Shown: positions 4,456 to 23,779 of the stretch, piece by piece
Layout of the letters: each line of letters starts with the position of its first letter
How positions within the stretch are numbered: the first letter of the stretch is position 1
Virus record (IMG/VR): IMGVR_UViG_3300030012_001919
Coordinates: 1 to 23,779 of that record
From: a virus
DNA: 23,779 nucleotides
Strand: one strand, 5' to 3'
Made by a program: the position numbers and the translations under genes
The notes under the pieces: model-generated
What the model was told of the DNA's origin: nothing
The model's database searches: none
What the model saw: only the letters and a program-made list of their open reading frames with translations

Positions 4456-4456
4456 T

Positions 4457-4762: not shown

Positions 4763-4797
4763 AAGTATTTGACTGACGCATCAAATAAGGAACCGTA

Positions 4798-5001
4798 ATG
4801 GACTTACAACAAATAGCAAAAAAACAGGAAGAGTTTAATAAACAACTAAAAGAGTTAGATGAAGCAATAAATGAAGCATCTGCTTTTTTACAACAGAAAG
4901 CTACAGAGCGTGAAAGATTGATAGGTGCTTTAGCTATGTTAAATGATATTAATCCTCCTAAAGAAACACAAACTAAGGAACCACAAAAGCAAACTAAATA
5001 G
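4798..5001 (+). CDS. Small coiled-coil protein (67 aa)
   Basis: A 67-residue highly charged protein preceded by AAGGAA seven bases before the ATG. Residues about 1-50 form one continuous heptad-like helix (IAKKQEEFNKQLKELDEAIN), followed by a Lys/Thr/Gln/Pro tail. Small soluble coiled-coil proteins are common beside phage holins and fibres, but nothing in the sequence gives a specific function. It sits between the fibre module and the lysis-type genes. Confidence 0.65.
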   Translation: MDLQQIAKKQEEFNKQLKELDEAINEASAFLQQKATERERLIGALAMLNDINPPKETQTKEPQKQTK

Positions 5002-5025
5002 TTTGTAGGTTTCGGAAAGACAATA

Positions 5026-5205
5026 ATGATTAATAAAAATTGGTATAAATCAAAAACTGTATGGTGCTCAATATGTGTTGCTGTTATAGGTGTATATCAA
5101 ACTGCAACTGGACAACCTATTCCTGAAGCAGTTTATGCTATCCTTGCAGCGTTAGGTTTGTATGGAGTTAGAGATGCAGTAGATAAGGTAAAAGAAAATG
5201 CTTAG
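5026..5205 (+). CDS. Putative holin, two membrane segments (59 aa)
   Basis: A 59-residue protein with Lys-rich N-terminus (MINKNWYKSKTVW), a hydrophobic stretch at about residues 11-27, a turn containing TGQPIPEAV, a second hydrophobic stretch at about 36-48, and a charged C-terminus (RDAVDKVKENA). This layout and the turn motif resemble small two-span phage holin-like proteins that open the inner membrane for the lysin. GGAAAG lies nine bases before the ATG. The next ORF overlaps by 8 bases and a muramidase-like gene follows at 5347, so a lysis cassette is a reasonable reading. It could also be a membrane protein with another role. Confidence 0.6.
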   Translation: MINKNWYKSKTVWCSICVAVIGVYQTATGQPIPEAVYAILAALGLYGVRDAVDKVKENA

Positions 5206-5350
5206 AAGAATAATAAAAAGAATGTTAGACAAGTATGGTATGATAGGCTTACTACTATATGTAGGTGACCATGCAGTCAAAGCAAGTAAAAGCAAAGAAG
5301 ATGATAAGATATGGGAACAAATAAAACCATATCTTGAAGATTTAAAATGA
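5198..5350 (+). CDS. Small basic lysis-cassette protein (50 aa)
   Basis: A 50-residue ORF that overlaps the holin-like gene by 8 bases and shares an ATGA with the following gene (5347-5350), so it is probably translated by coupling. The N-terminus is basic (MLRRIIKRMLDKYG), then a short hydrophobic stretch (MIGLLLYVG), then an acidic/basic helix ending in I-K-P-Y-L-E-D-L-K. The hydrophobic run is too short for a firm membrane call. No family recognised; possible holin partner or lysis regulator by position. Confidence 0.6.
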   Translation: MLRRIIKRMLDKYGMIGLLLYVGDHAVKASKSKEDDKIWEQIKPYLEDLK

Positions 5351-5829
5351 AAGTAACTGAAGCTAAAAGACTTATTGAAGATGTACTTAGCCAGATGGGG
5401 CAAAAGTATAGTAAAGATGAAGCCGTAGAGTTATTGTTAGTGACTGGTATGGTTGAGTCTGGCTATAAGTACATCTATCAAATAGGTGGTCCAGCTAGAA
5501 GTTATTGGCAAATTGAACCAGATACTTGTGTATCTCAGATTGAAAACTATATTTCTTATAGAAAGAAACTAGTAACAAAGTGTGCAGAGATTAGCAAGTT
5601 AGATGAATCTATATGGATGAGTAATGATAAAGAATTATGGGATTGGATTTTATCTACAAATATGGCAGCTGCTATTATTCATTGTAGACTAAAATACTGG
5701 AGAGTACCCAAAGCTTTACCACAAGATAGTTTAGGACAAGCTAACTATTGGAAAGATTTTTATAATACTCATGAAGGTGCTGGTACAGTTGAAAAATGGA
5801 TGGATGTAGTAGAAAAACATATGGTATGA
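5347..5829 (+). CDS. Muramidase/transglycosylase-like endolysin
   Basis: A 160-residue protein. After an N-terminal helix comes VTGMVESGYKYIYQ with a Glu at residue 37 in the place of the catalytic Glu of lysozyme/SLT-like folds, and then G-G-P-A-R-S-Y-W-Q-I-E-P at about 47-58, which resembles the G-x-x-Q-I/M-E-P turn of phage glycan hydrolases. The remainder is helical with Trp and Tyr, and there is no signal peptide. The length suits a single catalytic domain. It sits after a holin-like gene and overlaps the phosphoesterase gene by ATGA at 5826-5829. Peptidoglycan cutting during lysis is the best guess; a virion-borne muramidase is the alternative. Confidence 0.55.
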   Translation: MKVTEAKRLIEDVLSQMGQKYSKDEAVELLLVTGMVESGYKYIYQIGGPARSYWQIEPDTCVSQIENYISYRKKLVTKCAEISKLDESIWMSNDKELWDWILSTNMAAAIIHCRLKYWRVPKALPQDSLGQANYWKDFYNTHEGAGTVEKWMDVVEKHMV

Positions 5830-6584
5830 AAGCAAAAAGAGGCATAGTAATTCCAGACCAACACTATCCCATACACGATCAAAAAGCGTTAGAGATAGTA
5901 TATCAAGCCATAGAAATGGTTAAGCCTGACTTATTTATCAATTTAGGTGATGTTGGAGAATGGGAATCTGTATCTGCATGGAGATGGAAAGACAAAAAAT
6001 GTCCTCCACTAGAATATCAAATACCTATTATAGATGAAGAAATAGGATTAGTAAATCAAGGTATTGATGAAATAGACCATTATCTAGACAAAGTAAATTG
6101 TACTGAAAGGTACATACTTGCTGGTAATCATGATATTTGGTTAGACAACTTTGTTATTCGTTATCCTTACATGAAAGACTATAAATTTAGAAAAGCATGT
6201 TATTGGGATAAAAGAGGATATAAATACTATGATTATGGTGCTCCATTAAAAATAGGAAAACTATGTTTCTTTCATGGTGCATATGCTACTACTTATCATG
6301 CAAAAAAACATTTAGAAGCGTATGGAGAGAATGTAATGTATGGGCATACCCATGATGTACAAAGGCATACGCTTACTAAATTAGGTGGTACAATTGGTGC
6401 ATGGTCTTTAGGTTGTTTAAAAGATTGTAGTCCACAAAAAAATAAATGGTTGAAAAATAGATTACATAATTGGGTTTTAGCATTTGCTGTAATTGATTGG
6501 TTTACCGACGGACATTTTCGTGTTGATGTTTGTGAGATACACAAAAATAGAACTACATTATGGGGTGAAACTTTAAAGGCATAA
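5826..6584 (+). CDS. Calcineurin-like metallophosphoesterase
   Basis: A 252-residue protein starting at the ATG that shares ATGA with the lysin stop; an in-frame ATG 30 bases earlier is less likely because it lies well inside the lysin gene. All metal-binding blocks are present: P-D11-Q-H13, G41-D42, G100-N101-H102-D103, H150-G and G173-H174-T-H176. This is the full two-metal site of the superfamily, which hydrolyses phosphomono- or diesters. It lacks a signal peptide and membrane segments. Similar genes occur in marine phage late regions, where the substrate is unknown; nucleic-acid end or nucleotide processing are possibilities. Its location between a lysin and virion-type genes is unusual for a nucleic-acid enzyme. 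Confidence 0.85.
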   Translation: MKAKRGIVIPDQHYPIHDQKALEIVYQAIEMVKPDLFINLGDVGEWESVSAWRWKDKKCPPLEYQIPIIDEEIGLVNQGIDEIDHYLDKVNCTERYILAGNHDIWLDNFVIRYPYMKDYKFRKACYWDKRGYKYYDYGAPLKIGKLCFFHGAYATTYHAKKHLEAYGENVMYGHTHDVQRHTLTKLGGTIGAWSLGCLKDCSPQKNKWLKNRLHNWVLAFAVIDWFTDGHFRVDVCEIHKNRTTLWGETLKA

Positions 6585-6585
6585 T

Positions 6586-6981
6586 ATGGCTTCAGCAAAG
6601 AAAACCAAACCAAGTCTATGGAAAAGAATTGTTGCTAGTGTCAAGGCAAGTAATAAGGGAGGTAGGTCAGGTCAATGGTCTGCACGAAAAGCTCAATTAG
6701 CTACTGCAAGATACAAAAAAGCTGGAGGTGGATATAGAGGTGCAAAATCAAGTGATAATAGTCTTAGTAAATGGACAAAACAAAAATGGGACTATGTAAG
6801 TAAAAGTGACAAAAAGAAACCAAAATCAAAAAGAGGCAGGTATTTACCTGAGTCAGTTAGGAAAAGTCTTAGTAAATCCGAAAAAGCTTCTACTAATAAA
6901 AGAAAAAGAGCTGCTACCAAAAGAGGTAAGCAAAGAGCTAAATACACAAAAAAAATAGCAAGAAAGGTAAGGAACGCATAA
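6586..6981 (+). CDS. Basic protein with RSGQWSARKAQ-type domain (DUF5872-like)
   Basis: A 131-residue, very Lys/Arg-rich protein. It contains S-L-W-K-R-I-V-A, R-S-G-Q-W-S-A-R-K-A-Q-L-A, Y-K-K-A-G-G-G-Y, SLSKWTKQKWDY, R-Y-L-P and a C-terminal T-N-K-R-K-R-A-A-T-K-R-G-K-Q pattern. From memory these match the DUF5872 family of phage and algal-virus proteins; I could not verify the number. The function of that family is unknown. The strong positive charge suggests binding to DNA or RNA. It starts one base after the phosphoesterase stop and its stop overlaps the next ATG (TAATG), in a cluster of three basic proteins. Confidence 0.75.
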   Translation: MASAKKTKPSLWKRIVASVKASNKGGRSGQWSARKAQLATARYKKAGGGYRGAKSSDNSLSKWTKQKWDYVSKSDKKKPKSKRGRYLPESVRKSLSKSEKASTNKRKRAATKRGKQRAKYTKKIARKVRNA

Positions 6982-7136
6982 TGCCAATGGGAAAAGGAAC
7001 CTATGGTTCAAAAAGAGGTAGACCTAAAAAGAAAATGACAAAGAAGAAAGGTTTAACTGCAAAACAAAAAAAGTTACCAAAAAAACTTCAACAAGCAATA
7101 ATGAAGAAAAATGCCAAGAAAAAAAAGAAAAAGTAA
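6981..7136 (+). CDS. Small Lys-rich protein (51 aa)
   Basis: A 51-residue ORF starting on the last base of the preceding stop codon (TAATG, 6979-6983). It opens with MPMGKGTYGSKRGRPKKK, a sequence type I have seen at the start of short marine phage proteins, and ends in six Lys. About half of its residues are Lys or Arg. Its last 26 bases overlap the next gene in the +1 frame, and there both frames encode Lys/Arg runs. Nucleic-acid binding or charge neutralisation in the capsid are plausible but unproven. Confidence 0.65.
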   Translation: MPMGKGTYGSKRGRPKKKMTKKKGLTAKQKKLPKKLQQAIMKKNAKKKKKK

Positions 7137-7413
7137 ACGAGACCCTAAATTAGCAAGAGCTGGTGTATCAGGTTATAATAAACCTAAAAGAACTCCTGGT
7201 CATAAAACAAAAAGTCATATTGTAGTAGCAAAAGTTGGTGATACTACAAAGACTATTAGATTTGGTCAGCAAGGAGTTAGAGGTGCTGGTAAGAATCCTA
7301 AATCAAAAAAAGATAAAGCTAGAAGAAGATCTTACTATGCTAGGCATAATGCACAAGATGCTAAACCATCAAAGCTCTCTGCTCGTTATTGGTCTCACAA
7401 GGTGAAATGGTAA
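7111..7413 (+). CDS. Basic phage protein ending in W-S-H-K-V-K-W (100 aa)
   Basis: A 100-residue basic protein. It has a Lys/Arg N-terminus, GYNKPKRTPGHKTKSHIVVA, V-G-D-T-T-K-T-I-R-F-G-Q-Q-G-V-R-G, a region of K/R and S, and a C-terminal LSARYWSHKVKW. This layout recurs in small proteins of marine phages; I recognise the pattern but not a characterised function. The central part looks like a small beta hairpin unit (IVVAKVGDTTKTIRFG). The start overlaps the preceding gene by 26 bases. Together with the two genes before it, it forms a trio of basic proteins inside the late operon, which suggests a role in the virion or in DNA packaging. Confidence 0.75.
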   Translation: MPRKKRKSKRDPKLARAGVSGYNKPKRTPGHKTKSHIVVAKVGDTTKTIRFGQQGVRGAGKNPKSKKDKARRRSYYARHNAQDAKPSKLSARYWSHKVKW

Positions 7414-7716: not shown

Positions 7717-7987
7717 GATAGGATTTGCAGGATTAAGTGCTACAATACTTTTTATGACATTTAAATGGATGACATCTGAATTAAATAAAAAGATAGATGA
7801 CTTGCAAGATATTGTAATAAAACTTATTGATGCAAAAAATAATTTAAAAGAAGCTATATCTGACCATGAACTAAAAATGTTAGATGAATTTAAAAGTATG
7901 GCTGATAATACAACTGATCAACTTAATTACATTGAAAGTAAGCTTGGCAATGGTAGAGGTTCTAAGCAAAGAAGGAGAAGTAATTAA
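7697..7987 (+). CDS. Holin-like protein: N-terminal membrane segment plus coiled coil (96 aa)
   Basis: A 96-residue protein. Residues about 6-24 are hydrophobic (IGFAGLSATILFMTFKWM) and are followed by a long amphipathic helix (LNKKIDDLQDIVIKLIDAKN) and a basic tail (GSKQRRRSN). One N-terminal span followed by a coiled coil is the layout of BhlA/UviB-type holin-like proteins. Two ATGs stand side by side at 7697 and 7700; AAGGG at 7692-7696 is too close to the first, so translation may begin at 7700. Its stop overlaps the next start (TAATG). It is the second holin-like candidate in this operon, the first being at 5026. Confidence 0.65.
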   Translation: MMENWTEIGFAGLSATILFMTFKWMTSELNKKIDDLQDIVIKLIDAKNNLKEAISDHELKMLDEFKSMADNTTDQLNYIESKLGNGRGSKQRRRSN

Positions 7988-9924
7988 TGCCAAAAGAGGC
8001 ATTTGAAATAAAATCATTTGATGTAGGAGTAGCTACTAGTCCTTCTTCAAGAGATGTAGCTCCTAATGCAGCAGTACACTCTGAGAATATAGATTCTTTA
8101 ACAGAACAAGGTAAGCTTGTACCTATTCCTGGTCAAACCAATTGGATAAATTATACTGGAACTGACTTTGCTGAATTGCAAAGAGTAAATCAAGTAGGTG
8201 AAAGAGATTTAATTATTTATGATAATAGTGGCAATGCTGGTAACCTAAATTTAGTTAGCGATGTATATGAATTTAATACTGCTAAATCTTTAGATGGTGC
8301 TATAGGTTCATTAGGCAATCAACCAGATGTTAACTTTGTAACAAATAATAGTGAGTTACATATTGGTGGCACATCTAATTCTTTTAATTTACCTGCTACT
8401 GCAAAATCTATAATATTTTTAAATGGAAGAACACAATTTAATACTGGCTCTACAACTGGATATAATTTATTTGATTCTGAATGTCACAATCCTGATGATT
8501 TTCTTACAATAACTGTACAGGAAAGCACACAAAATGCTGTTATTCCTTACAGTGATGCAGCTTATCATTATGCATTTAGTGTAGTATATGATGAATATCA
8601 AGAATCACCATTATACTTTGAAGAAAATATAGGTATAAATACATGGGGTAGACACGCTAAAGTAGATGAAAATAGTGGTGCTAATAATACTAACAAAGGT
8701 ATAAAAGTAACTATAGCAATAGATACAGGAGATACAAAGTTTACTAAAAGAATTACTAATTTAAGGGTATATCGTGGTACATCACCAAGAAGTCAATTTA
8801 AAGCAGTAGGGTTTTATAGACTTGTAAAAGATTTTAATTTAATGACATATGCAGGTGCATCTACTAGTGGCAATACAAAGACCATTACTTTTCACGACCT
8901 AAATGAAGAACTAGGTACATCCTATGAGGACAATACAGGTATACCACAAACACTTGAAACTACACATGTAAACTATAAATTATCTGAAAAACTTGATAAT
9001 TCATTATTTATAGCTGATTGTATGCAATCTGACATAGGTTTTGAATCACAAACATATATTTTTAAAAGTAAACCTTATAGATTTAATACATTTGATTGGA
9101 CATTAGATTATGTTCGTATTGATTTTTTACCTACTGCTTTAGCATCTTTCTTAGGTAAATTATATGTTTTTGGTGAAAATAAAATGATAAAGGTAAATCC
9201 TCAAACATTAGTAGTAGAAGATGAGTTTGATGGTGTTGGATGTTTAAATCAAAATTGTGTATTAGTAACTGAGTATGGTATGGCTATTGCAGATGATAGA
9301 AATATTTATCTACATAATGGTAGTAACCCTGCACCAATTAGTAATGTTATAAACGAAGGATCAAGCTATTCATGGCAGAATAGACTAAAGACTTACGATT
9401 CATTTATGTTGTTTGATTCTAAAAGAAATTCTATAATAACATTTTTTCAAACTAATTTAGTTCAAGGTGATGAACAATGGGCATGGGCATATAATATATC
9501 GCAAAGCAGATGGGATTTGTATAAATTTGGAAACACAGTTTTTAAAGGTGGATATAACAACAAAGAGGGTGATGTTGTTATTGCTGATAGTAATTCACTT
9601 GAAAAATTATTTACATCTACAACTGAATTAGCTTTTACATGGCAAAGTGGTGATTTAAATATAGGTACGGATTCTCAAAGAAAAATATTTTTTAAGATAT
9701 ATGTATTTGGTACTGGCACTATAGATGTACAATACGCTATAGATAAAGGTTCTTTTTCTTCAGCATCTTCTGTCAATGCTAGTACCTTAACTAATGAAGC
9801 TAATGGTATTACTCTTCCTGCAAATGCTAGAAAGGGTAAAACTATTGCTGTTAAGGTAAGTGGTACTAATGGTGAAAAAGTAGACTCTATAGCAATTGTA
9901 TTAAGAAAGTTGTCAATCAAATGA
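7987..9924 (+). CDS. Tail/head-completion structural protein (nozzle or stabiliser type)
   Basis: A 645-residue protein that looks almost entirely beta-stranded with many aromatic and Asn/Gly turns. Features seen are an N-terminal F-E-I-K-S-F-D-V-G-V-A, a middle part with LRVYRGTSPRS, and a region around residues 380-480 with FGENKMIKVNP, YGMAIADDRNIYLHNG and Q-S-R-W-D-L-Y-K-F. Such regularly spaced blade-like strands occur in tail nozzle/tail-tubular proteins and packaged-DNA stabilisers of podoviruses. Position just before ejection proteins agrees. I cannot name the exact family, so tail nozzle versus head-completion protein stays open. The stop overlaps the next gene by ATGA. Confidence 0.55.
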   Translation: MPKEAFEIKSFDVGVATSPSSRDVAPNAAVHSENIDSLTEQGKLVPIPGQTNWINYTGTDFAELQRVNQVGERDLIIYDNSGNAGNLNLVSDVYEFNTAKSLDGAIGSLGNQPDVNFVTNNSELHIGGTSNSFNLPATAKSIIFLNGRTQFNTGSTTGYNLFDSECHNPDDFLTITVQESTQNAVIPYSDAAYHYAFSVVYDEYQESPLYFEENIGINTWGRHAKVDENSGANNTNKGIKVTIAIDTGDTKFTKRITNLRVYRGTSPRSQFKAVGFYRLVKDFNLMTYAGASTSGNTKTITFHDLNEELGTSYEDNTGIPQTLETTHVNYKLSEKLDNSLFIADCMQSDIGFESQTYIFKSKPYRFNTFDWTLDYVRIDFLPTALASFLGKLYVFGENKMIKVNPQTLVVEDEFDGVGCLNQNCVLVTEYGMAIADDRNIYLHNGSNPAPISNVINEGSSYSWQNRLKTYDSFMLFDSKRNSIITFFQTNLVQGDEQWAWAYNISQSRWDLYKFGNTVFKGGYNNKEGDVVIADSNSLEKLFTSTTELAFTWQSGDLNIGTDSQRKIFFKIYVFGTGTIDVQYAIDKGSFSSASSVNASTLTNEANGITLPANARKGKTIAVKVSGTNGEKVDSIAIVLRKLSIK

Positions 9925-10208: not shown

Positions 10209-11171
10209 ATGAGTATGCTATCACAAGCGTTGGGATTTGATAGAGCTAATAATTTTAGAACTGATATAGATACATCAGCACTAGAACAACAATATGCTTC
10301 ATTAAATGACCCATATGCTAATTTTGATTATTATAGAAGAGCTATGGGTGACAACCGAGCTAATCTAAACACAATGCTAGGAGTACAGGCTGCACAAGGT
10401 GGAAGTAGTGCTATAGCTCAACAACAAGCACAACGTATGGCTTCACAAGGTGGTGAAAGCGTATTAAATCAATTAGGTGCTGAATATGGTAGAAGGCAAA
10501 ATCAAGCTGTCAATGTAGCAAATCAACTAGCTAATTACGATTTACAAGAAATACAATTAGAAGATCAAAAAAGACAAATGCAACAAGGTGCAGCAATGGA
10601 GCCATTTAAACTAGGAGTATCTGCTTTAACAGGTGGAGTGGGTGCATCTATACTTGGAGGTTTAAGTACAGGTGCAAAAGCAATAGGTGGATTAATGGGT
10701 AATGCTGGTAACATTGCAGGTAATATTGGAGGTGCAGTTAGTAATGTAGCTAGTGGTATAGGTAATGCATTTACACAAGGATTTGGTAGTGGCATGGGAG
10801 CAATTGGTAATACTTTGGCTAGTGGAATACAAGGAGCAGGAGGCTTACTACAAAGAGCTGGTCAAGGTATAGGTAATTTTGTTAATCAACAACAAGCTGT
10901 TCCACAAATGGGAGATGCACCTGCACCACAAATAAATTATAATGCTATACCACCAGAACAAATGGCTATAAATGCAGGAGGCATGATGGCTCCACAACAA
11001 GGAGGTACAATAGCACCCCCACCACAAATGGGACCAGCTCCTACATTTATGGGTGGAGGTATGAATATGAGTATGTTAAATAGAGTAGTGTCAGCTCCAG
11101 CATATAGTAATTTTGGAATGGGTAGAAATAGTTTTGGTTTAGCTACACCACCAATGTTAGGAAGGTATTAA
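10209..11171 (+). CDS. Ejection (internal virion) protein with Gly-rich membrane-type core
   Basis: A 320-residue protein. Residues 1-125 are helical and Gln/Ala-rich (IAQQQAQRMASQGG, L-G-A-E-Y-G-R-R-Q-N-Q). Residues about 130-225 are a Gly/Ala/Ile-rich stretch with glycine-zipper spacing (GGVGASILGGLSTGAKAIGG). The C-terminus is Pro/Gln/Met-rich. This is typical of podovirus ejection proteins (T7 gp14 or P22 gp7 type), which leave the capsid with the DNA and insert in the host envelope. The two following genes are also ejection-like. Sequence similarity to a named protein is not claimed; composition and order carry the call. Confidence 0.6.
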   Translation: MSMLSQALGFDRANNFRTDIDTSALEQQYASLNDPYANFDYYRRAMGDNRANLNTMLGVQAAQGGSSAIAQQQAQRMASQGGESVLNQLGAEYGRRQNQAVNVANQLANYDLQEIQLEDQKRQMQQGAAMEPFKLGVSALTGGVGASILGGLSTGAKAIGGLMGNAGNIAGNIGGAVSNVASGIGNAFTQGFGSGMGAIGNTLASGIQGAGGLLQRAGQGIGNFVNQQQAVPQMGDAPAPQINYNAIPPEQMAINAGGMMAPQQGGTIAPPPQMGPAPTFMGGGMNMSMLNRVVSAPAYSNFGMGRNSFGLATPPMLGRY

Positions 11172-11172
11172 T

Positions 11173-12405
11173 ATGAGTTTAGTAGATTCACTAGACGCAA
11201 AATTATTTGCGAGAAAAGACAAACAATTTGAACAAAACATGCAGATGGAAAATCTGAAGTTAAAGTCAGTAATTGCTGCTAACGATGCAAAGTTTAAAGA
11301 AGGTCAATTAGCTAATCAGCAATCACAAATTGTAGGCAATCAACAATATAGAAATGCATTAGTTGATATTCAAAATGCTAATTTGGCATTGAACCAAAGA
11401 AAACAAGCATTTGATGAAGATGAAAGAATGGCATTTAGAGACCCACAATTAGCTAATTTACAAGCTAGAACAGGTTTGACTCAAGCACAAACAGGTACTC
11501 AAACAGCTAGAACAAATCAAATTAACTTAGATAATCGTTTTGCTGAACAATCATTTGACCGAAGATTAGACAATCTTTCATTAACAAATGAATTACAAAG
11601 AGGTCAAATTAAAGCACAAGACCTAGCTTATCGGTTAGGTGATGCTACGTTTGCAGATAAAGTAGCTATGTCTGGTCTTGGAGTTAAAGGAGCAGAATTA
11701 AGTAATGAAGGTGCAAGATTAGGAAATATAGGTGCAGGTATAACAAATCAAATGAATCAAAACATTTTAACTTATCAACCAGAAACGCTTAAGCAAAATT
11801 TAGAAGCAGGTCAAGTTGGTATTGATGCAACCAAACAAAGTATAGAAGCATCTAAAGCTAAAATGGAAAATGATAAAGCTAGATTAAATATAGAAAATGA
11901 AAAACTTGGTTTAGCTAAAAATGAACACGCATTTCAAAAAGAACAATATGAAGCTATGATGGAGAAAATGCCTACCGAAGCTGGATTTATAAAAGAGCAT
12001 ACTAACATGCTAAATCCTATTACTAATGCTATATTAGCTAATGTTGATACTAAAGGTAACAATAGGAAATCATGGGCAAAATCTTTTTTAGGATATGCGT
12101 TTGCTAGTCCAAGTTTAGTACAAAGTGGAAAAGCCGATAGAGAAATAATTAAAAGTATCAAACAAACAAAGTTTAATGATATAAATAAAATGCTTGGAAA
12201 CATAAATACTATGTTAGGTAGTGGTAATGCTAGTACTGACCAAATAAATGCTAGTAACGCTGCAGCACAATTTCTTATTAATAATTCTAAAGATTTTGGA
12301 TTTAGTAAAGTACAAAGAAAAGATCTAGTGTTAGAGGCACAAAGAATAACTAATATGATAAATGCTGGTAAGAAAGCATCTGTTCCACCAATGCAAACAC
12401 AATAA
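11173..12405 (+). CDS. Ejection (internal virion) protein, Gln/Asn-rich coiled coil
   Basis: A 410-residue protein made of long helices rich in Gln, Asn, Lys and Ala with few aromatics. Recurrent heptad-like stretches include ARTGLTQAQTGTQTARTNQI and IEASKAKMENDKARLNIEN. The C-terminal third is more globular (KSFLGYAFASPSLVQSGKAD). No membrane segment is evident. Its length, helical build and place between a Gly-rich ejection protein and the giant protein match the middle ejection protein of podoviruses, which forms part of the trans-envelope channel. It begins one base after the previous stop, and the giant gene begins directly after its own stop. Confidence 0.6.
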   Translation: MSLVDSLDAKLFARKDKQFEQNMQMENLKLKSVIAANDAKFKEGQLANQQSQIVGNQQYRNALVDIQNANLALNQRKQAFDEDERMAFRDPQLANLQARTGLTQAQTGTQTARTNQINLDNRFAEQSFDRRLDNLSLTNELQRGQIKAQDLAYRLGDATFADKVAMSGLGVKGAELSNEGARLGNIGAGITNQMNQNILTYQPETLKQNLEAGQVGIDATKQSIEASKAKMENDKARLNIENEKLGLAKNEHAFQKEQYEAMMEKMPTEAGFIKEHTNMLNPITNAILANVDTKGNNRKSWAKSFLGYAFASPSLVQSGKADREIIKSIKQTKFNDINKMLGNINTMLGSGNASTDQINASNAAAQFLINNSKDFGFSKVQRKDLVLEAQRITNMINAGKKASVPPMQTQ

Positions 12406-15400
12406 ATGTCACAATATTTACTCGACCTTTACAGTCAATCTCCAGACATATTTAGTGATGAGGAAGTAGACCAACTAGAATCATTCGCAAAAGATAATAA
12501 TATATCTTTTATGCGAAACCCCAATAGTATGGACTTTTCCATAGGTAGAACCCTAAAGCAAACTGCACAAGGGTTTGCATCTGGAATGACTACGTTAAAA
12601 ATAGGTGAAGCTCCTAGAAACGAAGCAGAAAGAATAGCTAATAGTGTAGGTCATTTATTTGGATTTATAGGTATTATTCCTGGAGCAGGTACTCTTTTAA
12701 GTGCTGGTACTAAAGCTTTAGGAACAGGAGTAAAAGCCGTAGGTATCGGTTCTAAGATTGCAAAAGCTACAAAAGTAACAGGACAACCAGGAAGATTTGG
12801 TGGTGTTGCAACTGGTGTTTCTGTACCTATGATGGCAACAAATGCATTGTTTAGTGGTGTATCAAGAGGAGCCAAAGCATTACCAGCTAATAGAGTTACT
12901 AATTTTTTTAAAGATACAAGTAAACTTGGTAATATAACACAACAAGCTTTGCACCTAGGTACAGCAAGTGCTGTATCTTCTTGGCAAGAAGGTTTAGACA
13001 CTATGATGTCTAGCTTTGTACAGGGTACTGTAGCTGGTGGTGTTTTTGCAGGTATACCGAATTTTAAAACACTAAACAACCTTGTAAAAAATCCTGACCC
13101 AGTAAAACAACAACAAGGACTAAATGGTGTTCGTGCTTTAGCTGGTGCTATAGCTAATACAGGGTTAGTAGCAGGTACTAGTGCATTATCTGGAATGGAA
13201 GTACCTCCATCAGAATATATTTATCAAGCATTGTTAGGTGGATATTTTGGTTATAAGACCCAACCTTTTGAGCAACAACTTGCTGGTAAAAGAGTAGGTC
13301 AAGCTGTACAAGAAAGACAAGAACGTATTGCTAATGAAGGTGAACCTTTTTATTACTTAACTAAAGACAACATTAAAGATTATCAAACTTTACCTACAGA
13401 AACTAAATCATATATAGATACACAATTAGCAGTTGACCCTCAAACAAGACAACTAATAGCACAACTCGCACCGAAAGAATCTTTTCAATTAGGACAAAAC
13501 TTTGTAGAGGGTATCAATAAAAAAACTGGTAAACCTATTTATGTAGATTTAAATGCAGGTGTAAACAAAAAGAATCAATTAAAAACATACGAATTAGAGA
13601 GTGTAGATGCCTCTAAACCTTTAGTATCTAAATTGGTTAGTGTAAATAATGTAGATGTTATAGAGCCAGTTACATTTAAAAAAGCTAGAAAAGATGCTGT
13701 TTATGAAATAGATGAATCTTCTATTGATTTTACTACAAGTGAGTTGCAAGGTGATAAATTAAATAGAGTATTAAATACATTAGAAAAAGATGGATTTAAT
13801 AGATTTGAAGCAGAAACTAATTTAATCAAAGTATCAAAAAGTTTTAATCGTGGTATAGACCAAGCTGAACAATTAGAAGCATTTAGAAAATTATATCCAC
13901 AATCCTTTAGTAAAATAGAAAGAGATCTTCAATCATATATAAGATATAACGAGGGATTAAAAGAGGTTAATCAAATAGTTTATGTAGATAGTCCTGATGG
14001 TGGCATAAAGCCTAGAGGTAGCATTAGTTTAGATAATAATGTAATTACTAAAATGAAACATAACAGTTTATTAGATGATACTGTTATAGGTTTGTCTAAA
14101 GGTTTACCTCATTTACAAAACAAACCTGTTGAAGTTAGAGGTGTACAAGAACTTCAATATTATCATGTAAAAGATAATCAAGGAAAATTTATTGAACAAA
14201 GATTATTAGATGCTGATGTATTTATTAATAGCAAAACAGGTAAAGAAACAAACCTTGCTAATGACGTTCGTGTAGATTTGGCATTAAATCAAGAAGCATA
14301 TATTTTATCTAGTAAAAAAGCTAAAGGCACATTACAAGTTGTTCCATTCTTAGTACCTGTTTCAGGAGCTACTAACATAGCACAAGGATATGCTAAATCA
14401 GTAGGTTCACTTGCTCAATACAAAAAACTAAGAAATGATTTTAGTAATAATATTGTTGGTACACAAATAGGCACAACAGGTAAATCTCTTACTAAGAGAC
14501 AAGCTAATAATTTATACGATAGAATGTTTGCTAGTAATATACGTTTATTAGAAAACATGAATGGACTACCTTTAAAAGATATGTTAAAGGCTACTAAGAA
14601 AAACAAAAAAGCGTTTGTCTTAGATGTTGTAGATTTTAATAATAGGATGCAATTATTTGATGCAGCTGAACCTGGACTTTCAAAAACAAGATTTATTAAT
14701 AACAAAGGTAAAGTCACATTAAAAGATTCTGAAATAAATGCTAATGGTGATGTTGAGTTAAAGTTTGCATTAATTAACAGTAAAAATCAAAATATTGTAG
14801 ATAAGGTTGGACAAGAAATAAATGCTCATGTTGATGGTATTGTATTTTTAAGAAAAGATTTATTTAAAAAAATGTTAGATGAGGGTGGTTTTCCAAACAG
14901 GTCATCTATTTTAAAAGGAACTATTGCTAGTAAAGAAGCTGGTAAAGGATTGTTGTTAGGCAAATTAGCTTATTTTGAAGCACCAAGTATAATAAATAAA
15001 TCTTTAGTAACTAAGAAAATACATGGTGAAATATATGATACTGCTATTAAACAAACAGGATTACGAAAATTTGCATCTGCAAAATACTTACCTATAAACA
15101 GAAGAGGTTTTGACCCAATAAGATATATAGGCAAAGATTATATAACTAAAATAAAGCCTGAAGATATAAGACTTAATTTATCTGTATATGAAAACCCACA
15201 AAGCAGTCTTAAACCACAAAAGGTAGTACAACAATTATTAACTACTCCTTCATTACAACAACTTAGTAAAAAAAGTTTAAATGAATTATATGATTATGTG
15301 CAAAAAGAAGGTATAGATGGTGACCCTGTAATTCGTAAAAAGATAGAAGATCATCTTGCTAGAAAAAAAGTTCTTACTGACAATGAAATATCCAAATTAA

Positions 15401-18400
15401 ATATAGATGACATACCTATAGATTTAATAGCAAGTATAACACAACAACAAACATCAAGTAGATTATACTCACATGTATTTAAAAAACTATTATCAGCAGA
15501 TAATCAATACCTCAAAAGTGATATACAAACACAAGCACAATTAGACTTACTGAAAAATGCTAGAAGGTTTAATGCTAGTGGTGATAGGATTATAACAGTA
15601 GCAGAATTAAATCCTGCTGTAACTAATCACAAATGGGTTACTAATTTTTCTGACCAAGTAATTACTAAATATATTATAGATAGAGTTATATCTCCTAAAG
15701 TAAAGTATTCTGGTAAAGCTATTGGTGTACCTAACAATATTGTTTATAGGAAAATATTAAAAACACAAGAAGGTGAAATGCATCTTGGCAATGAATGGAA
15801 AAACTTTATTATTCGTGTTGGTGATAAAGAAATGACTCTTGGTAATGCATATGCAGAATACACCCAGAAGAAGCTTTCTAAGGCTCGTAAAGCACAGTTA
15901 GAGGATGCTTTTGAGTTTGTTGTTACTAGAGTTCCAATTGATGCATTAAGTGGCATTAGAGCCTTAAAATTCAAAGGATTTACAGGGGATAGAGGTGCAG
16001 GAATTGTATTAAATGGTAAGGATATGATACAATTTTCTGGAATGGATTTAGATATTGATAGTGTATTTCTATATCAATCAATGCCAAAGTCTTTTAGAAA
16101 ACAACTAAAGAAGAATAAAGATGAGTTTTATCAAGGTGGTAAGTTTATAGACGCTAAAAGTAAACAAGCAGAAAGACAATTTACAGTATCAGAATATGGT
16201 GATAAAAAACTATCTGATATAAGAAGCAGTAATATATCTGTATTTGACCCATCGTTAAGAGTGCAAGTAGGTCAATCTGTATACGAAAGTGCTAAGAGTA
16301 TTGGGGTTGCTGTTAACACTAGCAGAAGAGCAAGAGCTATTTATGAGTATGAAACTAATCGTAAGAATAAAACCATTCAAAGAGATAAGGGTAAAGGCAT
16401 CAGAGAAACTGGTAGAAGCATAACTCAGTTAGCAGCAGATTCAAAAGACTATGCTGGATTAGTAGACAACCAAACATTATCACAAGCTATATATGATAAG
16501 ATTTATAGAAGAAAGAAAAAACCAAAAGAGTTATGGAATGACCCTGAAATAGGTAATATTTTAAAAGTTGATGCTAGTATAAGGGGTAGGAGATGGAATC
16601 GTAAATTACAAAAAACTGAAAAAGCTAGAATAGATGACATCTTACAAGTGATAAATGACACACCTTTGCCAGAAGGATCACCACTTTGGTTACAGCAATA
16701 CGTTAGAAATATGAAGAAGTTTGAGTATGATTTTAATGTTACCAATAAAATAAATACTCGAAACTTAACAAAGCAAACTAATAAACTTATTGATGAGATA
16801 AGTAAGTTAGACTCAGACTTTGATGCATTAATTTTTAAAAATGTACAAGGTTTTAGTATTGAAAAACTAAATGACCCTAATGCACAAAGAAGAAAAATAT
16901 CAGATGCACTATCACAGTTAGTATCTATTAAAAGATTAGCTGGTGCTATTAAAGCTGCTCAAAATAAAGGTGCTACTAAAGAACAAATCTTTGATGCTAT
17001 TAACTTTGCAGAGCAAATAAACTATGCATCATATTTCACAGTTACTAGATTAGATAAAAATAGACTTACCCCTGAAGCATTAGATTATATTAATAAAACA
17101 AATCTTAAAACACCAAACGATGTAAATATAGCATTAAAAGAAAGACTTGATAGATCTTCTCCAGAAATAAAAAATTTAATACAAGAAAAATTAATTAATA
17201 ATATACTTGGACCCACACCACAAGAAATAAATATATCAGTAGTCAAACCGAAAGAATTACCAAAAGGATTGCAAAAAGCAGTAGATGCACAAAAGGGTTC
17301 TGAGGTGCAAAAAGGTTATGTAGCTGATTTACAAAGATTTGGGTTTGTTTCTGAGTTAGTACCAGATTCTATGATAAAGAGCTGGTTTAAAGATTATTCT
17401 AATGTATTTGATGCAATACAAAATAAACCAACAGTATCCTATGCTAGGCAGTTAATAGCAGGTAGTAATAGTAAATATGAAGCAGTACGCACACAAGCAA
17501 AACGAGAAGATAGACTTAATCTAACAATGAATCTTCTAAGGAGAACACCACTTAAAAATCCTACACAACAAACATTAGAATATAAAAAGTATTTATCTGA
17601 AATATTCAATCACCATAGAGAAGCATATACTGAAGGATTTGAAGCAAAGTTTTTAGGTACTGCTGCAATGTCTCCAATGGGAGCTGAAATAAAGATACCA
17701 AGATCGTTAGAACAACTAGATGCTACTACTATGAATAACTTTATAGGTTTCTGGAGAACAGTTACTAATGGAAAACTAGCTAATATGGTTGCTAAAAAAG
17801 GTATGCCATTAAAATGGAAAGACTTTTTCAAGTTTCCAACAACTATATCAGAACAACATTTACAATATGATTTAAAGTGGGCACAGACTAAAGCACCTGT
17901 ACTAAAGCCAGGAAAGGGTGCAGAGCTAAGAGATTTACAAATACCTATATCTAACTCAGGTAAATTACAAGCTACAACACAAGCATCATTAGAAATGTAT
18001 GATTCAGTAAGTCAAAGATTTAATGAGAAGTTAATTAAAAAGTTTGACTATACAGAAAACATACCTACTGAAATTAAATCTGATGTTATTAGTGATGCAG
18101 TTGCTTTGATTGAAATAAAAGGAGCAGATGCACAAATATATAAAGATTCATATGCAAAGGCATTATCAAATCGAGATAAGTACAAAGGCAAGAAATATGT
18201 ATTAACAATTCGTGGTGATAATAGAAAACTGACATATGAAAAATTAGTAAATCAAGTAAGTAAAGATATGGAATCTACTTTAGGTGATGTTCAAGAAGTT
18301 ATTTATGGTAGAAGATTTGCAAATAAAAAAGAATATGATGATGCAAAAATCAATGTAATGGATGAATCAAATCCAAATCATGAGTTTTGGAATTTTGTTG

Positions 18401-20511
18401 TATTAAAAAATCCTGCAAATGGTAAGAAAATTAGTAACATAAATATTGATGCAACCATATCAAAACGCATTTCTTCTAATTTATTTCAAAAAAAGATGGG
18501 ACAACCTGAGCCATTTATACATTACGCACGATTAAGCGACATTATAATCAAATTAGAGTCATTTACCTCTAAGAACAGCAATAAGCTAGTTCGTGAGCTT
18601 AATTCAGACCAAATTGATGCTTGGTTTAGAAAGAATGATAAAAAATTTAAGTTTCGTGGTGCAGGATATGTAGAAGGTTATTTTCCACACATGAATCATC
18701 TACCTACTGAAGTGCAAAAATACATGGAAAGAAAAATAGCTACTAGAGAAGCTGAAGCAGCACAAAAAGCAAAAGAGCTTGTAGACAATGCAAATTCTGT
18801 AGATGGTGGTCTTAGTGATAACTTAGCTAGATTAGTATTACAAGATAATAAAAAGAGCAGAAGGCTAAAAGAAAATGACCAGCTACATGGTACATTAGGT
18901 ATGAGGTCAAGACCACAAAACTTATTAACTAGAGATAAGAACGACCCTACTCCTGGATATAGAAAGAGTGTTGATGTATTAGGTCAATATCATAGTAAAA
19001 TATATAAAGCTACAACTAATCATATGTTAGGACTTGCAGGATATAAAACGATTAGAGATTTTCATAAAGGTAATTCTTTTGGTAAAGACAATGTACAATG
19101 GGAAAGGTTTATGAAACTCTATCTTGCTGATAACCTTGGCTATCCTTCTATCATGCCACAGAAATGGGCAGACGACCCAACCTTTGCAGGAAATAAAAAA
19201 TCATTATACTACAAGTTTACAGATAAATATATCTTTGAAAAAATGAATAGGAATCTTCCAGGTCTAGTAGGTGAGAAAGGCAAATGGTACAAAAACCCAG
19301 AAGATCTTGGTAGGAAACTAAATCATTTTAGTAATATGGAAGGCAAGTATCAGCTATATACTTTGTTATTTAATACAAGAACATATTTCAACAACGTAGT
19401 TGGTGGTAATTTTAATAGCATGATTAGTGCTGGTTTTGACAATATGTATATGTCTTACGGAACATTAGATAAAATTGTACCAAAGGCAAAGGGTGACCCT
19501 ATTAAAAGAGGTTATGAGTATTTTAGAAAGATTGCAGAAGAGCATGGTGCAGTAGAAACTTTTCTAACTGGTGAGTTCAATAGTAATCCTATATTTGCAA
19601 AAGGCAAAGGAAGAAAGATTGAAACTGCAAAAAAAGAACTTAGAGAGTTGCGTGACAAAGGTCAATTAAATAGAAAAAATGCTGGGGAAATTTTAAGGAG
19701 AGCAGGTATATCACAAACTGCTGAAAGAGGAGCTGGATTCTTAATGAGAGTAGCAGAGGAAAGATTAAGAACTAGGTCTTATTGGATGCATTATAAAAAA
19801 GCTCAAGAAGTATTTAGTAATAATGGAATTGTATTTGAAAGGGATGACCCTATTCTTGTTAAGTTTGCATTAAAAGGTTCACAAACTTCTCAATATTTAT
19901 ACAACAATGCACAAAGACCTGCATTTTCTAGAACATCTTTTGGTAGGGTATTTTCTAGATTCCAATTATTTACATGGAATAGTATAAGATTAAGAAAGCA
20001 ATTCTACAAAGCTGCAAAGGGATATGGTTTTAATCCTGATACACAAGAGTTTGATCAATTTAAGAGGATGATGTTGGCTGATATGTTTGTTATTTCATTA
20101 GCATCTTATTTTCCAGCATCATTATTTGAGAACGTAGTACCACCACCATATAATATACTACAAGATTTATCAGATGTGGCATTTGGTTCAGAGAAAGAGA
20201 GAGAAAGAGCTTTCTTTGGCACACTACCAGCACCATTTAATGTAGTACAAGCTGTTTCTCCACCATCGGCAAGACTTATAATGCAACCTTTGGGTAGTGC
20301 ATTAAAAGGTGATTGGGAAAGATTTTATGATTATTATATTTATAACATGATGCCAGGAGGGATGATGATTAAAACTGGAATGGACATCATGAAGTCTCCT
20401 TTATCTTTAGTAAACAAAGCAACTGGATTCCCACTATATCAAATAGCTGCTAAAGTTAGAGATAAAAGAAAAGTGACCGAAGAGGAAAAGAAAGCAGGAG
20501 AGCAGAACTAG
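12406..20511 (+). CDS. Giant virion protein with candidate two-barrel RNA polymerase core
   Basis: A 2701-residue protein, over a third of the window. Residues ~50-300 are Gly/Ala-rich and membrane-active in look, with P-P-S-E-Y-I-Y-Q-A-L-L-G-G-Y-F-G at ~267-282. Residues ~805-885 have H-V-D810-G and a Lys-rich block (K837-G, K843, GKGLLLGK853, NKSLVTKK871). Residues 1172-1220 read VVTRVP, F-K-G-F, G-A-G-I-V and S-G-M-D1214-L-D1216-I-D1218. S-I-G-V-A-V-N-T lies at 1298-1305. This order resembles crAss-like virion RNA polymerases (phi14:2 gp66, D-F-D-I-D) and YonO/QDE-1. The C-terminus (~2515-2590) has FSRFQLFTWNS and a hydrophobic segment, as in large ejection proteins. Likely ejected with the DNA; RNA synthesis is an inference from motifs, and a plain internal virion protein is the alternative. 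Confidence 0.65.
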   Translation: MSQYLLDLYSQSPDIFSDEEVDQLESFAKDNNISFMRNPNSMDFSIGRTLKQTAQGFASGMTTLKIGEAPRNEAERIANSVGHLFGFIGIIPGAGTLLSAGTKALGTGVKAVGIGSKIAKATKVTGQPGRFGGVATGVSVPMMATNALFSGVSRGAKALPANRVTNFFKDTSKLGNITQQALHLGTASAVSSWQEGLDTMMSSFVQGTVAGGVFAGIPNFKTLNNLVKNPDPVKQQQGLNGVRALAGAIANTGLVAGTSALSGMEVPPSEYIYQALLGGYFGYKTQPFEQQLAGKRVGQAVQERQERIANEGEPFYYLTKDNIKDYQTLPTETKSYIDTQLAVDPQTRQLIAQLAPKESFQLGQNFVEGINKKTGKPIYVDLNAGVNKKNQLKTYELESVDASKPLVSKLVSVNNVDVIEPVTFKKARKDAVYEIDESSIDFTTSELQGDKLNRVLNTLEKDGFNRFEAETNLIKVSKSFNRGIDQAEQLEAFRKLYPQSFSKIERDLQSYIRYNEGLKEVNQIVYVDSPDGGIKPRGSISLDNNVITKMKHNSLLDDTVIGLSKGLPHLQNKPVEVRGVQELQYYHVKDNQGKFIEQRLLDADVFINSKTGKETNLANDVRVDLALNQEAYILSSKKAKGTLQVVPFLVPVSGATNIAQGYAKSVGSLAQYKKLRNDFSNNIVGTQIGTTGKSLTKRQANNLYDRMFASNIRLLENMNGLPLKDMLKATKKNKKAFVLDVVDFNNRMQLFDAAEPGLSKTRFINNKGKVTLKDSEINANGDVELKFALINSKNQNIVDKVGQEINAHVDGIVFLRKDLFKKMLDEGGFPNRSSILKGTIASKEAGKGLLLGKLAYFEAPSIINKSLVTKKIHGEIYDTAIKQTGLRKFASAKYLPINRRGFDPIRYIGKDYITKIKPEDIRLNLSVYENPQSSLKPQKVVQQLLTTPSLQQLSKKSLNELYDYVQKEGIDGDPVIRKKIEDHLARKKVLTDNEISKLNIDDIPIDLIASITQQQTSSRLYSHVFKKLLSADNQYLKSDIQTQAQLDLLKNARRFNASGDRIITVAELNPAVTNHKWVTNFSDQVITKYIIDRVISPKVKYSGKAIGVPNNIVYRKILKTQEGEMHLGNEWKNFIIRVGDKEMTLGNAYAEYTQKKLSKARKAQLEDAFEFVVTRVPIDALSGIRALKFKGFTGDRGAGIVLNGKDMIQFSGMDLDIDSVFLYQSMPKSFRKQLKKNKDEFYQGGKFIDAKSKQAERQFTVSEYGDKKLSDIRSSNISVFDPSLRVQVGQSVYESAKSIGVAVNTSRRARAIYEYETNRKNKTIQRDKGKGIRETGRSITQLAADSKDYAGLVDNQTLSQAIYDKIYRRKKKPKELWNDPEIGNILKVDASIRGRRWNRKLQKTEKARIDDILQVINDTPLPEGSPLWLQQYVRNMKKFEYDFNVTNKINTRNLTKQTNKLIDEISKLDSDFDALIFKNVQGFSIEKLNDPNAQRRKISDALSQLVSIKRLAGAIKAAQNKGATKEQIFDAINFAEQINYASYFTVTRLDKNRLTPEALDYINKTNLKTPNDVNIALKERLDRSSPEIKNLIQEKLINNILGPTPQEINISVVKPKELPKGLQKAVDAQKGSEVQKGYVADLQRFGFVSELVPDSMIKSWFKDYSNVFDAIQNKPTVSYARQLIAGSNSKYEAVRTQAKREDRLNLTMNLLRRTPLKNPTQQTLEYKKYLSEIFNHHREAYTEGFEAKFLGTAAMSPMGAEIKIPRSLEQLDATTMNNFIGFWRTVTNGKLANMVAKKGMPLKWKDFFKFPTTISEQHLQYDLKWAQTKAPVLKPGKGAELRDLQIPISNSGKLQATTQASLEMYDSVSQRFNEKLIKKFDYTENIPTEIKSDVISDAVALIEIKGADAQIYKDSYAKALSNRDKYKGKKYVLTIRGDNRKLTYEKLVNQVSKDMESTLGDVQEVIYGRRFANKKEYDDAKINVMDESNPNHEFWNFVVLKNPANGKKISNINIDATISKRISSNLFQKKMGQPEPFIHYARLSDIIIKLESFTSKNSNKLVRELNSDQIDAWFRKNDKKFKFRGAGYVEGYFPHMNHLPTEVQKYMERKIATREAEAAQKAKELVDNANSVDGGLSDNLARLVLQDNKKSRRLKENDQLHGTLGMRSRPQNLLTRDKNDPTPGYRKSVDVLGQYHSKIYKATTNHMLGLAGYKTIRDFHKGNSFGKDNVQWERFMKLYLADNLGYPSIMPQKWADDPTFAGNKKSLYYKFTDKYIFEKMNRNLPGLVGEKGKWYKNPEDLGRKLNHFSNMEGKYQLYTLLFNTRTYFNNVVGGNFNSMISAGFDNMYMSYGTLDKIVPKAKGDPIKRGYEYFRKIAEEHGAVETFLTGEFNSNPIFAKGKGRKIETAKKELRELRDKGQLNRKNAGEILRRAGISQTAERGAGFLMRVAEERLRTRSYWMHYKKAQEVFSNNGIVFERDDPILVKFALKGSQTSQYLYNNAQRPAFSRTSFGRVFSRFQLFTWNSIRLRKQFYKAAKGYGFNPDTQEFDQFKRMMLADMFVISLASYFPASLFENVVPPPYNILQDLSDVAFGSEKERERAFFGTLPAPFNVVQAVSPPSARLIMQPLGSALKGDWERFYDYYIYNMMPGGMMIKTGMDIMKSPLSLVNKATGFPLYQIAAKVRDKRKVTEEEKKAGEQN

Positions 20512-22187: not shown

Positions 22188-22499
22188 CTAATCTTTTTCT
22201 GATAGCTTATACATAACTAAAAAGAAATCTAGTGGCATTACTGCCAAAGTATCTGTTCTATCTCCTTTAATTACTTGTATATCTACATTTTCATTAGGCA
22301 ACATCCATTCTGCAATTTTCTTTCTACACTTGGCTTGTACCTTTAATTTTTCACCTATAACTAAATCTACTTCTTCATGTTGTCCCATTGACCTTCCATC
22401 ACTACCCCATGCTCTTTTAGCCTTTATGTCAAAGAATTTAGCTCTATCGACTATATAACGCTCAAAACGATTACCTTTTGCTTTACTCTTGCTCGGCAT
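22188..22499 (-). CDS. Hjc-like Holliday-junction resolvase / PDDEXK nuclease
   Basis: A 103-residue protein with the PDDEXK layout of archaeal-type Hjc and phage resolvases: SKAKGNRFE13 at the start, A-W-G-S-D-G-R at ~30-36, E-V-D45-L-V-I, and V-Q55-A-K57-C-R-K-K. Glu13, Asp45 and the Q-x-K pair fill the usual metal and catalytic places. It would cut branched DNA made in replication or recombination before packaging. The start is the second Met (22499): AGGAGG at 22506-22511 lies six bases from it but directly touches the first ATG at 22505. It overlaps the acidic 59-residue gene by 17 bases. Confidence 0.75.
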   Translation of the reverse strand: MPSKSKAKGNRFERYIVDRAKFFDIKAKRAWGSDGRSMGQHEEVDLVIGEKLKVQAKCRKKIAEWMLPNENVDIQVIKGDRTDTLAVMPLDFFLVMYKLSEKD

Positions 22500-22662
22500 C
22501 TTCATCCTCCTCTATTTCATTCCTCAACTTATTTCTTTCATTTATTTTTTCTGCAAGGTCTTTAGGTATCATTTCAGCATCTTTAGATATATCTTTATTA
22601 TCGTTTTCGTCACCTGGGTCATGATAGAATAACATATCTACCTCTTTCTTTTTTTTATTCAT
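22483..22662 (-). CDS. Small acidic-tailed protein (59 aa)
   Basis: A 59-residue protein with basic start MNKKKKEVDM, then L-F-Y-H-D-P-G-D-E-N-D-N-K-D, a helix P-K-D-L-A-E-K-I-N-E-R-N-K-L-R-N and a strongly acidic end EEDEDAEQE. It shares ATGA with the 25-residue ORF (22659-22662), and its last codons carry the AGGAGG site used by the resolvase, so the resolvase is probably coupled to it. No family recognised. Confidence 0.65.
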   Translation of the reverse strand: MNKKKKEVDMLFYHDPGDENDNKDISKDAEMIPKDLAEKINERNKLRNEIEEDEDAEQE

Positions 22663-23096: not shown

Positions 23097-23356
23097 TTGA
23101 TCTTTCTTGTTGTTACAAATGCTCTTTCATATTTAGTACCACAATTAGAACATTTAACGTAATGTAATTTAATTTGACCTTTCCAATGTGTCCCATAAGC
23201 ATCACCTTTTGGATTCTTGCATACAGGACACACCGAAGTCATTTCTTTTTTTCTATCCTCAATATCGTTAATAATAATCTCTACATTACTAGCTAGTTCT
23301 CTAATCAATTGTTTTATAAAGAACAGATTACTAAAAACTTTTTCTATCATTCTCAT
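23093..23356 (-). CDS. Zinc-ribbon protein with N-terminal helix (87 aa)
   Basis: An 87-residue protein. Residues 1-38 form a long amphipathic helix (VFSNLFFIKQLIRELASNVE), followed by a zinc ribbon with C43-P-V-C46 and C69-S-N-C72 and a basic end (T-T-R-K-I-K). The first ATG is chosen because it shares ATGA with the ATPase stop (23353-23356). A ribbon directly after a helicase-type ATPase could contact DNA or the ATPase, but this is inference from position. Confidence 0.7.
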   Translation of the reverse strand: MRMIEKVFSNLFFIKQLIRELASNVEIIINDIEDRKKEMTSVCPVCKNPKGDAYGTHWKGQIKLHYVKCSNCGTKYERAFVTTRKIK

Positions 23357-23779
23357 GAATGTTGTGTAAAGTTAAATATTTGAGGATTAAACTTTAAATA
23401 TGTTGCAAAAGAATTTTGAGACCTAGCTTTATGTACTTTAAACATACGCTTTACAGATTGTCTCTCACCTTCTATAGATACAACATTATCACTTTTAGTA
23501 GCAATATGAGTAGAGCCTTTACCACTTAAAGCATTTAGATTGGCTCTTGATGCCTCCTTAGATACATGACTTACTACAAAACTTATTGTTCTGTTTCTAT
23601 TAGTCATCTCACGAACACCATTAATAACAGTATCTATATGTTCTGTTGTACCTTGACGTACTCTTGGCACTGATACAGCATCAATTGTATCTATTACTAG
23701 AATCTCTGGTTGTTCTATTGCTACTAACCTTTTGATTGAGTTCAGTTCCATATGGTCAATAATTATATTAATGTATTTC
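23353..23779 (-). CDS. RecA/DnaB-type ATPase, C-terminal part (partial)
   Basis: The frame stays open past the Met at 23751 to the window edge, so the gene is cut at its 5' end; about 141 residues are visible. They include a Walker B strand P-E-I-L-V-I-D-T-I-D, T-I-S-F-V-V-S-H-V-S-K-E-A with the sensor His, and L-S-G-K-G-S-T-H-I-A-T-K-S-D-N-V, followed by a basic K-V-H-K-A-R-S-Q-N-S-F. This is the RecA-like core of DnaB/gp4-type helicases or RadA-like ATPases; the Walker A motif lies outside the window. A replicative helicase is most likely, a RecA/RadA-like recombinase the alternative. It leads the minus-strand operon seen here. Confidence 0.7.
   Translation of the reverse strand, partial: KYINIIIDHMELNSIKRLVAIEQPEILVIDTIDAVSVPRVRQGTTEHIDTVINGVREMTNRNRTISFVVSHVSKEASRANLNALSGKGSTHIATKSDNVVSIEGERQSVKRMFKVHKARSQNSFATYLKFNPQIFNFTQHS

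Follow-up and report, generated by a model that had tools for sequence, protein, structure and literature searches.

A predicted two-barrel RNA polymerase within a giant, putative virion protein of small uncultivated phages

The window analyzed here, the whole 23,779-base IMG/VR virus record IMGVR_UViG_3300030012_001919 and probably a fragment, carries on its + strand a late operon whose last gene is a 2701-codon open reading frame (ORF), with small opposite-strand genes after it. We find that residues about 780-1400 of the 2701-residue product, P0001 (12406..20511, + strand), very probably form a single-chain two-barrel DNA-dependent RNA polymerase (RNAP) of the crAss-like/QDE-1 branch, set between an N-terminal and a C-terminal domain in what is probably a giant component of a short-tailed virion. 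In two-barrel RNAPs, Mg2+ is bound by a D-x-D-x-D loop where one barrel faces the other, and the other barrel contributes basic residues (PMC1750930, PMC10770324). Every feature checked in sequence and predicted model places P0001 in the single-chain two-barrel RNAP superfamily, with the crAss-like/QDE-1 branch as its closest kin.

A first-pass annotation had placed a candidate polymerase of this kind, related to phi14:2 gp66, QDE-1, and YonO, at 14740-16330, which corresponds to residues about 779-1308 of P0001. All of the motifs that it named lie in the translation at the residues it gave (HVDG at 808-811, RVP at 1175-1177, FKGF at 1189-1192, GAGIV at 1197-1201, SGMDLDID at 1211-1218, and SIGVAVNT at 1298-1305), and what it described as a Lys-rich block resolves into the conserved K837 and K853, plus K882. 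P0001 contains a second D-x-D-x-D at 1469, and no others besides the D1214 triad, so such a motif could by itself have arisen by chance, whereas its conservation could not.

Relatives and conserved residues

P0001 matched nothing among 50,697 INPHARED phage records (tblastn), nothing above the cut-off in Pfam and PHROGs, and nothing above chance among PDB sequences; a phmmer match to RcsB (E 0.14) was rejected as chance. An HMMER profile of the family also returned only chance matches among PDB sequences, showing that sequence search alone is insufficient. Default peptide-pattern searches using single proteins found no relatives because they require eight consecutive identical residues. The first route to relatives was a degenerate DNA pattern for G-M-D-[LF]-D-I-D, which returned 46 viral loci. 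At eight of these, the encoded protein is a relative of P0001, with 24-31% identity across up to about 2,300 residues, the same range of identity as for full-length relatives. A further six resemble crAss-like RNAPs and carry R-I-P-[TS] ... G-M-D-F-D-I-D in the corresponding position, where two of the six align weakly with P0001 (E 0.004 and 0.014). Because this first set had been picked by the motif, a second search used only an alignment of the C-terminal 390 residues, and the 36 loci that it returned are unbiased for the Asp motif. A scan with an alignment of the polymerase gave 302 pattern stretches, 225 of which encode relatives, so that 225 viral contigs is a lower bound for the family in IMG/VR; 80 of these were retrieved, and conservation in the large set was counted over 73-76 distinct sequences. 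The giant proteins of the family range from 2,374 to 4,130 residues, BLAST found no isolate match to the family, and the relatives are uncultivated. We consider it likely that these contigs represent a large undescribed family of giant virion two-barrel RNAPs in small, uncultivated short-tailed phages, with an N4-type layout and, in some members, extra inserted enzymes. The literature surveyed does not describe the family, although some members may already be catalogued in a survey of viral two-barrel RNAPs reported by the P23-45 authors.

Twenty-two giants were aligned, the majority of them selected through the C-terminal domain and not through the motif. D1214, D1216, D1218, R1175, and P1177 are identical in 22/22, in a region whose mean column identity is 13-14%, and a D-x-D-x-D is present in every relative whose sequence reaches the region. 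The first-pass annotation had named loss of the Asp triad in homologs as refuting its reading; the triad is likewise kept in 76/76 distinct sequences, whose overall identity is about 25%. What lies between the Asp varies (DLDID, DLDGD, DLDSD, DNDID, DQDGD, DHDSD, DKDSD, and DYDGD), and fixed Asp with variable intervening residues are what a catalytic metal loop shows, as in RNAPs. Also invariant are D810, G811, K837, and K853 (73/73), P1097, R1175, P1177, and G1212 (75-76 sequences), and K882 and D1345 (73-76 sequences); of these, D810, G811, K837, K853, K882, R1175, P1177, and D1345 lie outside the search pattern. It is hardly credible that the barrels are an inactive relic, retained as a structural part of an ejection protein after polymerization was lost. 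The extreme sequence divergence, which extends to all characterized RNAPs, would fit such a history, but a relic would not retain exactly the Asp triad, R-x-P, and two Lys that are invariant here.

Predicted fold and structural matches

An AlphaFold2 model of residues 560-1540, made with the 22-sequence alignment, has a predicted local distance difference test score (pLDDT) of 77.6 and a predicted template modeling score (pTM) of 0.79, with the barrels mostly near 90. Its strands form two clusters joined by a helical connector. The first, a double-psi beta-barrel (DPBB)-B-like barrel at residues about 783-928 (14752..15189, +), contains D810-G811 and places K837 and K853 on adjacent strands (835-844 and 848-858, respectively). 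The connector, at residues about 931-1095 (15196..15690, +), may by position only correspond to the clamp connector of two-barrel RNAPs. The second cluster, a DPBB-A-like barrel at residues about 1097-1226 (15694..16083, +; pLDDT mostly 78-96), contains YSGKAIG, RVP, and the putative metal-binding loop and aligns to crAss-like RNAPs in hhalign. The predicted DLDID catalytic loop itself, D1214/D1216/D1218 (16045..16059, +), precedes the last strand of this barrel. A barrel fold at 780-1320, the absence of which the first-pass annotation had named beforehand as refuting its reading, is thus predicted for both barrels, and their order, Lys-barrel, helical connector, Asp-barrel, is that of gp66, as had been proposed. 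Downstream of the barrels are SIGVAVNT at residues 1298-1305 (16297..16320, +), in which G1300 is kept in 74/75 sequences, and a conserved helix with A-A-D at residues 1330-1365 (16393..16500, +), in which D1345 is kept in 75/75; from its position after DPBB-A, the latter is a candidate bridge-helix/trigger-loop region.

The best matches to the model by Foldseek against the PDB were all two-barrel RNAPs. The phi14:2 virion RNAP (6vr4, E 9.9e-10) ranked first, followed by five entries for QDE-1 (E 1e-8 to 4e-7) and then by P23-45 gp64 (8f72, E 7.6e-4), plant RDR2, and then the beta' subunits of cellular RNAPs. In the BFVD viral library, the best matches (template modeling [TM]-score up to 0.58) are unnamed proteins, with crAss-like proteins next and P23-45 gp64 lower. 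These rankings bear on whether the protein might instead make another product or copy another template, for example as a PolD-like primase/DNA polymerase or a polymerase with an RNA template, injected to initiate replication and not transcription. PolD has the same two-barrel core (PMC7281927), QDE-1, which copies RNA, ranks second among the fold matches, and a primase-helicase gene adjoins the giant ORF in the clade. Against this, the list of the 50 best fold matches does not contain PolD, the top match is a DNA-dependent RNAP, and the neighboring primase-helicase already provides primers, leaving such a role very improbable.

The link to crAss-like RNAPs extends to sequence profiles. In hhalign, the 22-sequence family profile matched an 11-sequence crAss-like RNAP profile that includes gp66 with a probability of 96.5 and an E of 9.7e-10 over 428 columns, in an alignment that pairs the two Asp triads with each other and the family's L-K-G with that of gp66. 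Controls consisting of reversed profiles, two neighboring phi14:2 proteins, and the C-terminal part of gp96 gave probabilities of at most 0.3 (at most 0.1 for the reversed profiles). The fold match, this controlled profile match, and the invariant catalytic residues together bear out the proposed relation of the two-barrel core to gp66 and QDE-1. Several results weigh in the opposite direction. Query-normalized full-length TM-scores to solved RNAPs are low, about 0.25-0.37, because large lineage-specific parts outside the barrels differ. The family profile matched gp66 as a single sequence only weakly (probability 3.4), and hhalign did not recover YonO and P23-45 gp96 as single sequences (gp96 probability 0.3), so that the suggested kinship with YonO was not detected by sequence. 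The C-terminal AlphaFold2 model, which covers the parts proposed below to form a conduit, is unreliable (pLDDT 57.6). Finally, one two-barrel RNAP and no second RNAP was found per related contig, a result tempered by these contigs being mostly fragments.

Among known enzymes, phi14:2 gp66 and its Crassvirales relatives share with P0001 the single chain, the Lys-barrel before the Asp-barrel, and the R-x-P ... G-x-D-x-D-I-D block; the P0001-family polymerase differs in lying mid-protein and in being accompanied by a conserved C-terminal domain of its own. QDE-1 shares the single-chain two-barrel fold and the order of Lys-barrel and then Asp-barrel with a helical connector (PMC10770324, PMC1750930), whereas it is a cellular eukaryotic RNA-interference polymerase, RNA/DNA-templated and without a virion-protein fusion. 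YonO of Bacillus phage SPbeta is also a single-chain two-barrel RNAP (PMC7281927), differing in that hhalign detects no sequence relation.

Probable virion packaging and a proposed route of early transcription

The first-pass annotation had called P0001 a giant ejected protein. The giant ORF is plain, and ejection is supported indirectly, by the late-operon position, the N4-like layout, and the podovirus-type portal in relatives. Phage N4 ejects the virion RNAP gp50, of about 3,500 residues and comprising an N-domain, RNAP, and C-domain, together with two smaller ejection proteins (PMC12633501). The layout of P0001, with a central RNAP and candidate small ejection proteins encoded alongside, resembles that of gp50 (Schitoviridae; PMC12633501, PMC5512222), whereas the gp50 polymerase has a T7-like palm fold unrelated to the two-barrel fold. 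In P0001, the domain order and an N-terminal hydrophobic segment are present, and the ejection role of the neighbors is suggested by position only. The segment, at residues 80-102 (12643..12711, +), is possibly membrane spanning by a hydropathy scan and sits in a region kept among relatives, with G82, L84, G86, and F87 conserved. The C-terminal domain, at residues 2304-2697 (19315..20496, +), is the most conserved part of the protein, better conserved than the polymerase, and defines the family; it contains a hydrophobic segment at residues 2555-2577. Directly upstream of P0001 in the same operon is a 410-residue Gln/Asn-rich protein (11173..12405, +), a candidate second ejection protein, preceded by a 320-residue Gly/Ala/Gln-rich protein (10209..11171, +), a candidate third; both are assigned by position only.

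In longer related contigs, the same block also encodes an internal virion protein, a major head protein, a terminase (phrog_38), and a portal of the P22/podovirus type (phrog_156). No long-tail genes were recognized. The portal of one relative matches P22-like, Helicobacter, and Vibrio podoviruses and no Crassvirales record. These portal matches, together with the size of the related contigs (at most about 56 kb, versus about 90-100 kb for Crassvirales genomes), speak against membership in the Crassvirales. An N4-type palm RNAP is likewise set aside, as the predicted fold is two-barrel and a search of 24 related contigs gave no T7-type RNAP (PF00940), while phage T7 was positive as a control.

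We infer packaging and ejection of P0001 from the late operon, the N4-like layout, the P22-like portal in relatives, and the lack of a T7-type RNAP. An alternative is a two-barrel RNAP made in the infected cell whose fusion to a structural-looking protein would be incidental. P23-45 gp64, a fold match to P0001, is such a non-virion RNAP with a similar fold (PMC10770324). We regard this possibility as improbable given that P0001 is one continuous 2701-residue ORF that closes the late operon, with a C-terminal domain more conserved than the polymerase, and that the characterized giants N4 gp50, P23-45 gp96, and phi14:2 gp66 sit in virions (PMC12633501, PMC10770324). Both P23-45 and crAss-like phages have two-barrel polymerases within giant virion proteins (PMC10770324). 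Like P0001, gp96 is a two-barrel RNAP fused to such a protein, yet its polymerase, which lacks a clamp, is N-terminal in the 5002-residue tail tape measure of a long-tailed phage (PMC10770324), whereas that of P0001 is central, its relatives carry a P22-like short-tail portal, and the two have no sequence match.

For a virion-borne polymerase, we propose that both barrels would meet at one active site, in which Mg2+ would be bound by D1214/D1216/D1218, while K837/K853, on the opposite barrel, would touch the nucleoside triphosphate and the RNA end. P0001 would be packaged and would exit the capsid together with the small proteins of its operon, and its hydrophobic N- and C-terminal regions may help to form or line a conduit across the envelope. 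The polymerase could then transcribe the first phage genes during DNA entry, before or instead of the host RNAP, probably starting with the opposite-strand block that lies to the window's right. The family would thereby offer a mechanism of early gene expression for small phages without another recognized RNAP. Giant virion polymerases are known from three settings in the literature surveyed (N4-like, crAss-like, and P23-45), to which the P0001 family would add a fourth that is apparently widespread. The N4 layout would here be realized with an unrelated polymerase fold; if true, the same solution was reached twice. How single-chain two-barrel polymerases and the eukaryotic RNA-interference polymerase originated is debated, and the family contributes dozens of diverse sequences to that question.

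Variants, hosts, and neighboring genes

Some relatives have additional domains inserted in the giant protein. In L068 (giant at 2309-7381), a Dda/RecD-like superfamily 1 helicase (AAA_30, UvrD_C_2) is inserted between the barrels, in the region of residues 436-841, and the single Dda-like PHROG match in the set (E 1.2e-68) fits this helicase; the insertion suggests a self-contained transcription machine. The giants of L067 (2261-7450) and L063 (2783-7132) contain inserted cpYpsA/SLOG domains, an arrangement reminiscent of polyvalent proteins (PMC5512222). Separately, a giant "structural protein" of >3,571 residues in the isolate Flavobacterium phage Fpv1 (L088) holds an R-T-P ... D-Y-D-I-D polymerase block and is another giant fusion.

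Two metagenome bins provide clues to the host. One relative (L105, JAHISV010000010.1, identical to L052) sits within a 142.6-kb contig from a Bacteroidetes bin, where the phage block is joined to genes that include those for a TonB-receptor plug with a carboxypeptidase-regulatory domain and for citrate lyase; L105, with L107-L110, is either a provirus or a chimera, and a lead to the host. The second bin match is to a Flavobacteriaceae bin. Allowing for binning errors, this suggests that at least some members infect Bacteroidota, as crAss-like phages do. Shine-Dalgarno-like sites precede about half of the starts in the window and in L094-L105, against a background of 5-10%. Frequent Shine-Dalgarno sites are unusual for Bacteroidota. 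Their frequency here is in apparent tension with Bacteroidota hosts, and host assignment from ribosome-binding sites is ambiguous.

Elsewhere in the window, the - strand carries a small resolvase/PDDEXK-like nuclease (22188-22505) and, at the right edge, the C-terminal end of a DnaB-type primase-helicase (23353-23779), both found at the same place in many relatives. A 645-residue protein of the late operon (7987..9924, +) has no family match and is a candidate tail/neck stabilization protein. The 160-residue phrog_3108 gene at 5347-5829, possibly a lysis gene, has a holin as its neighbor in Vibrio phage K303 and occurs in >100 other phages; it was dropped as a handle on phage identity because it is so widespread. 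A metallophosphoesterase (phrog_221) of the late operon, at 5796-6584, has its nearest isolate matches mostly among actinophage proteins, at 23-29% identity. The tail fiber, of 1244 residues at 721-4455, has an N-terminal Mtd_N domain and a C-terminal S74 self-cleaving chaperone.

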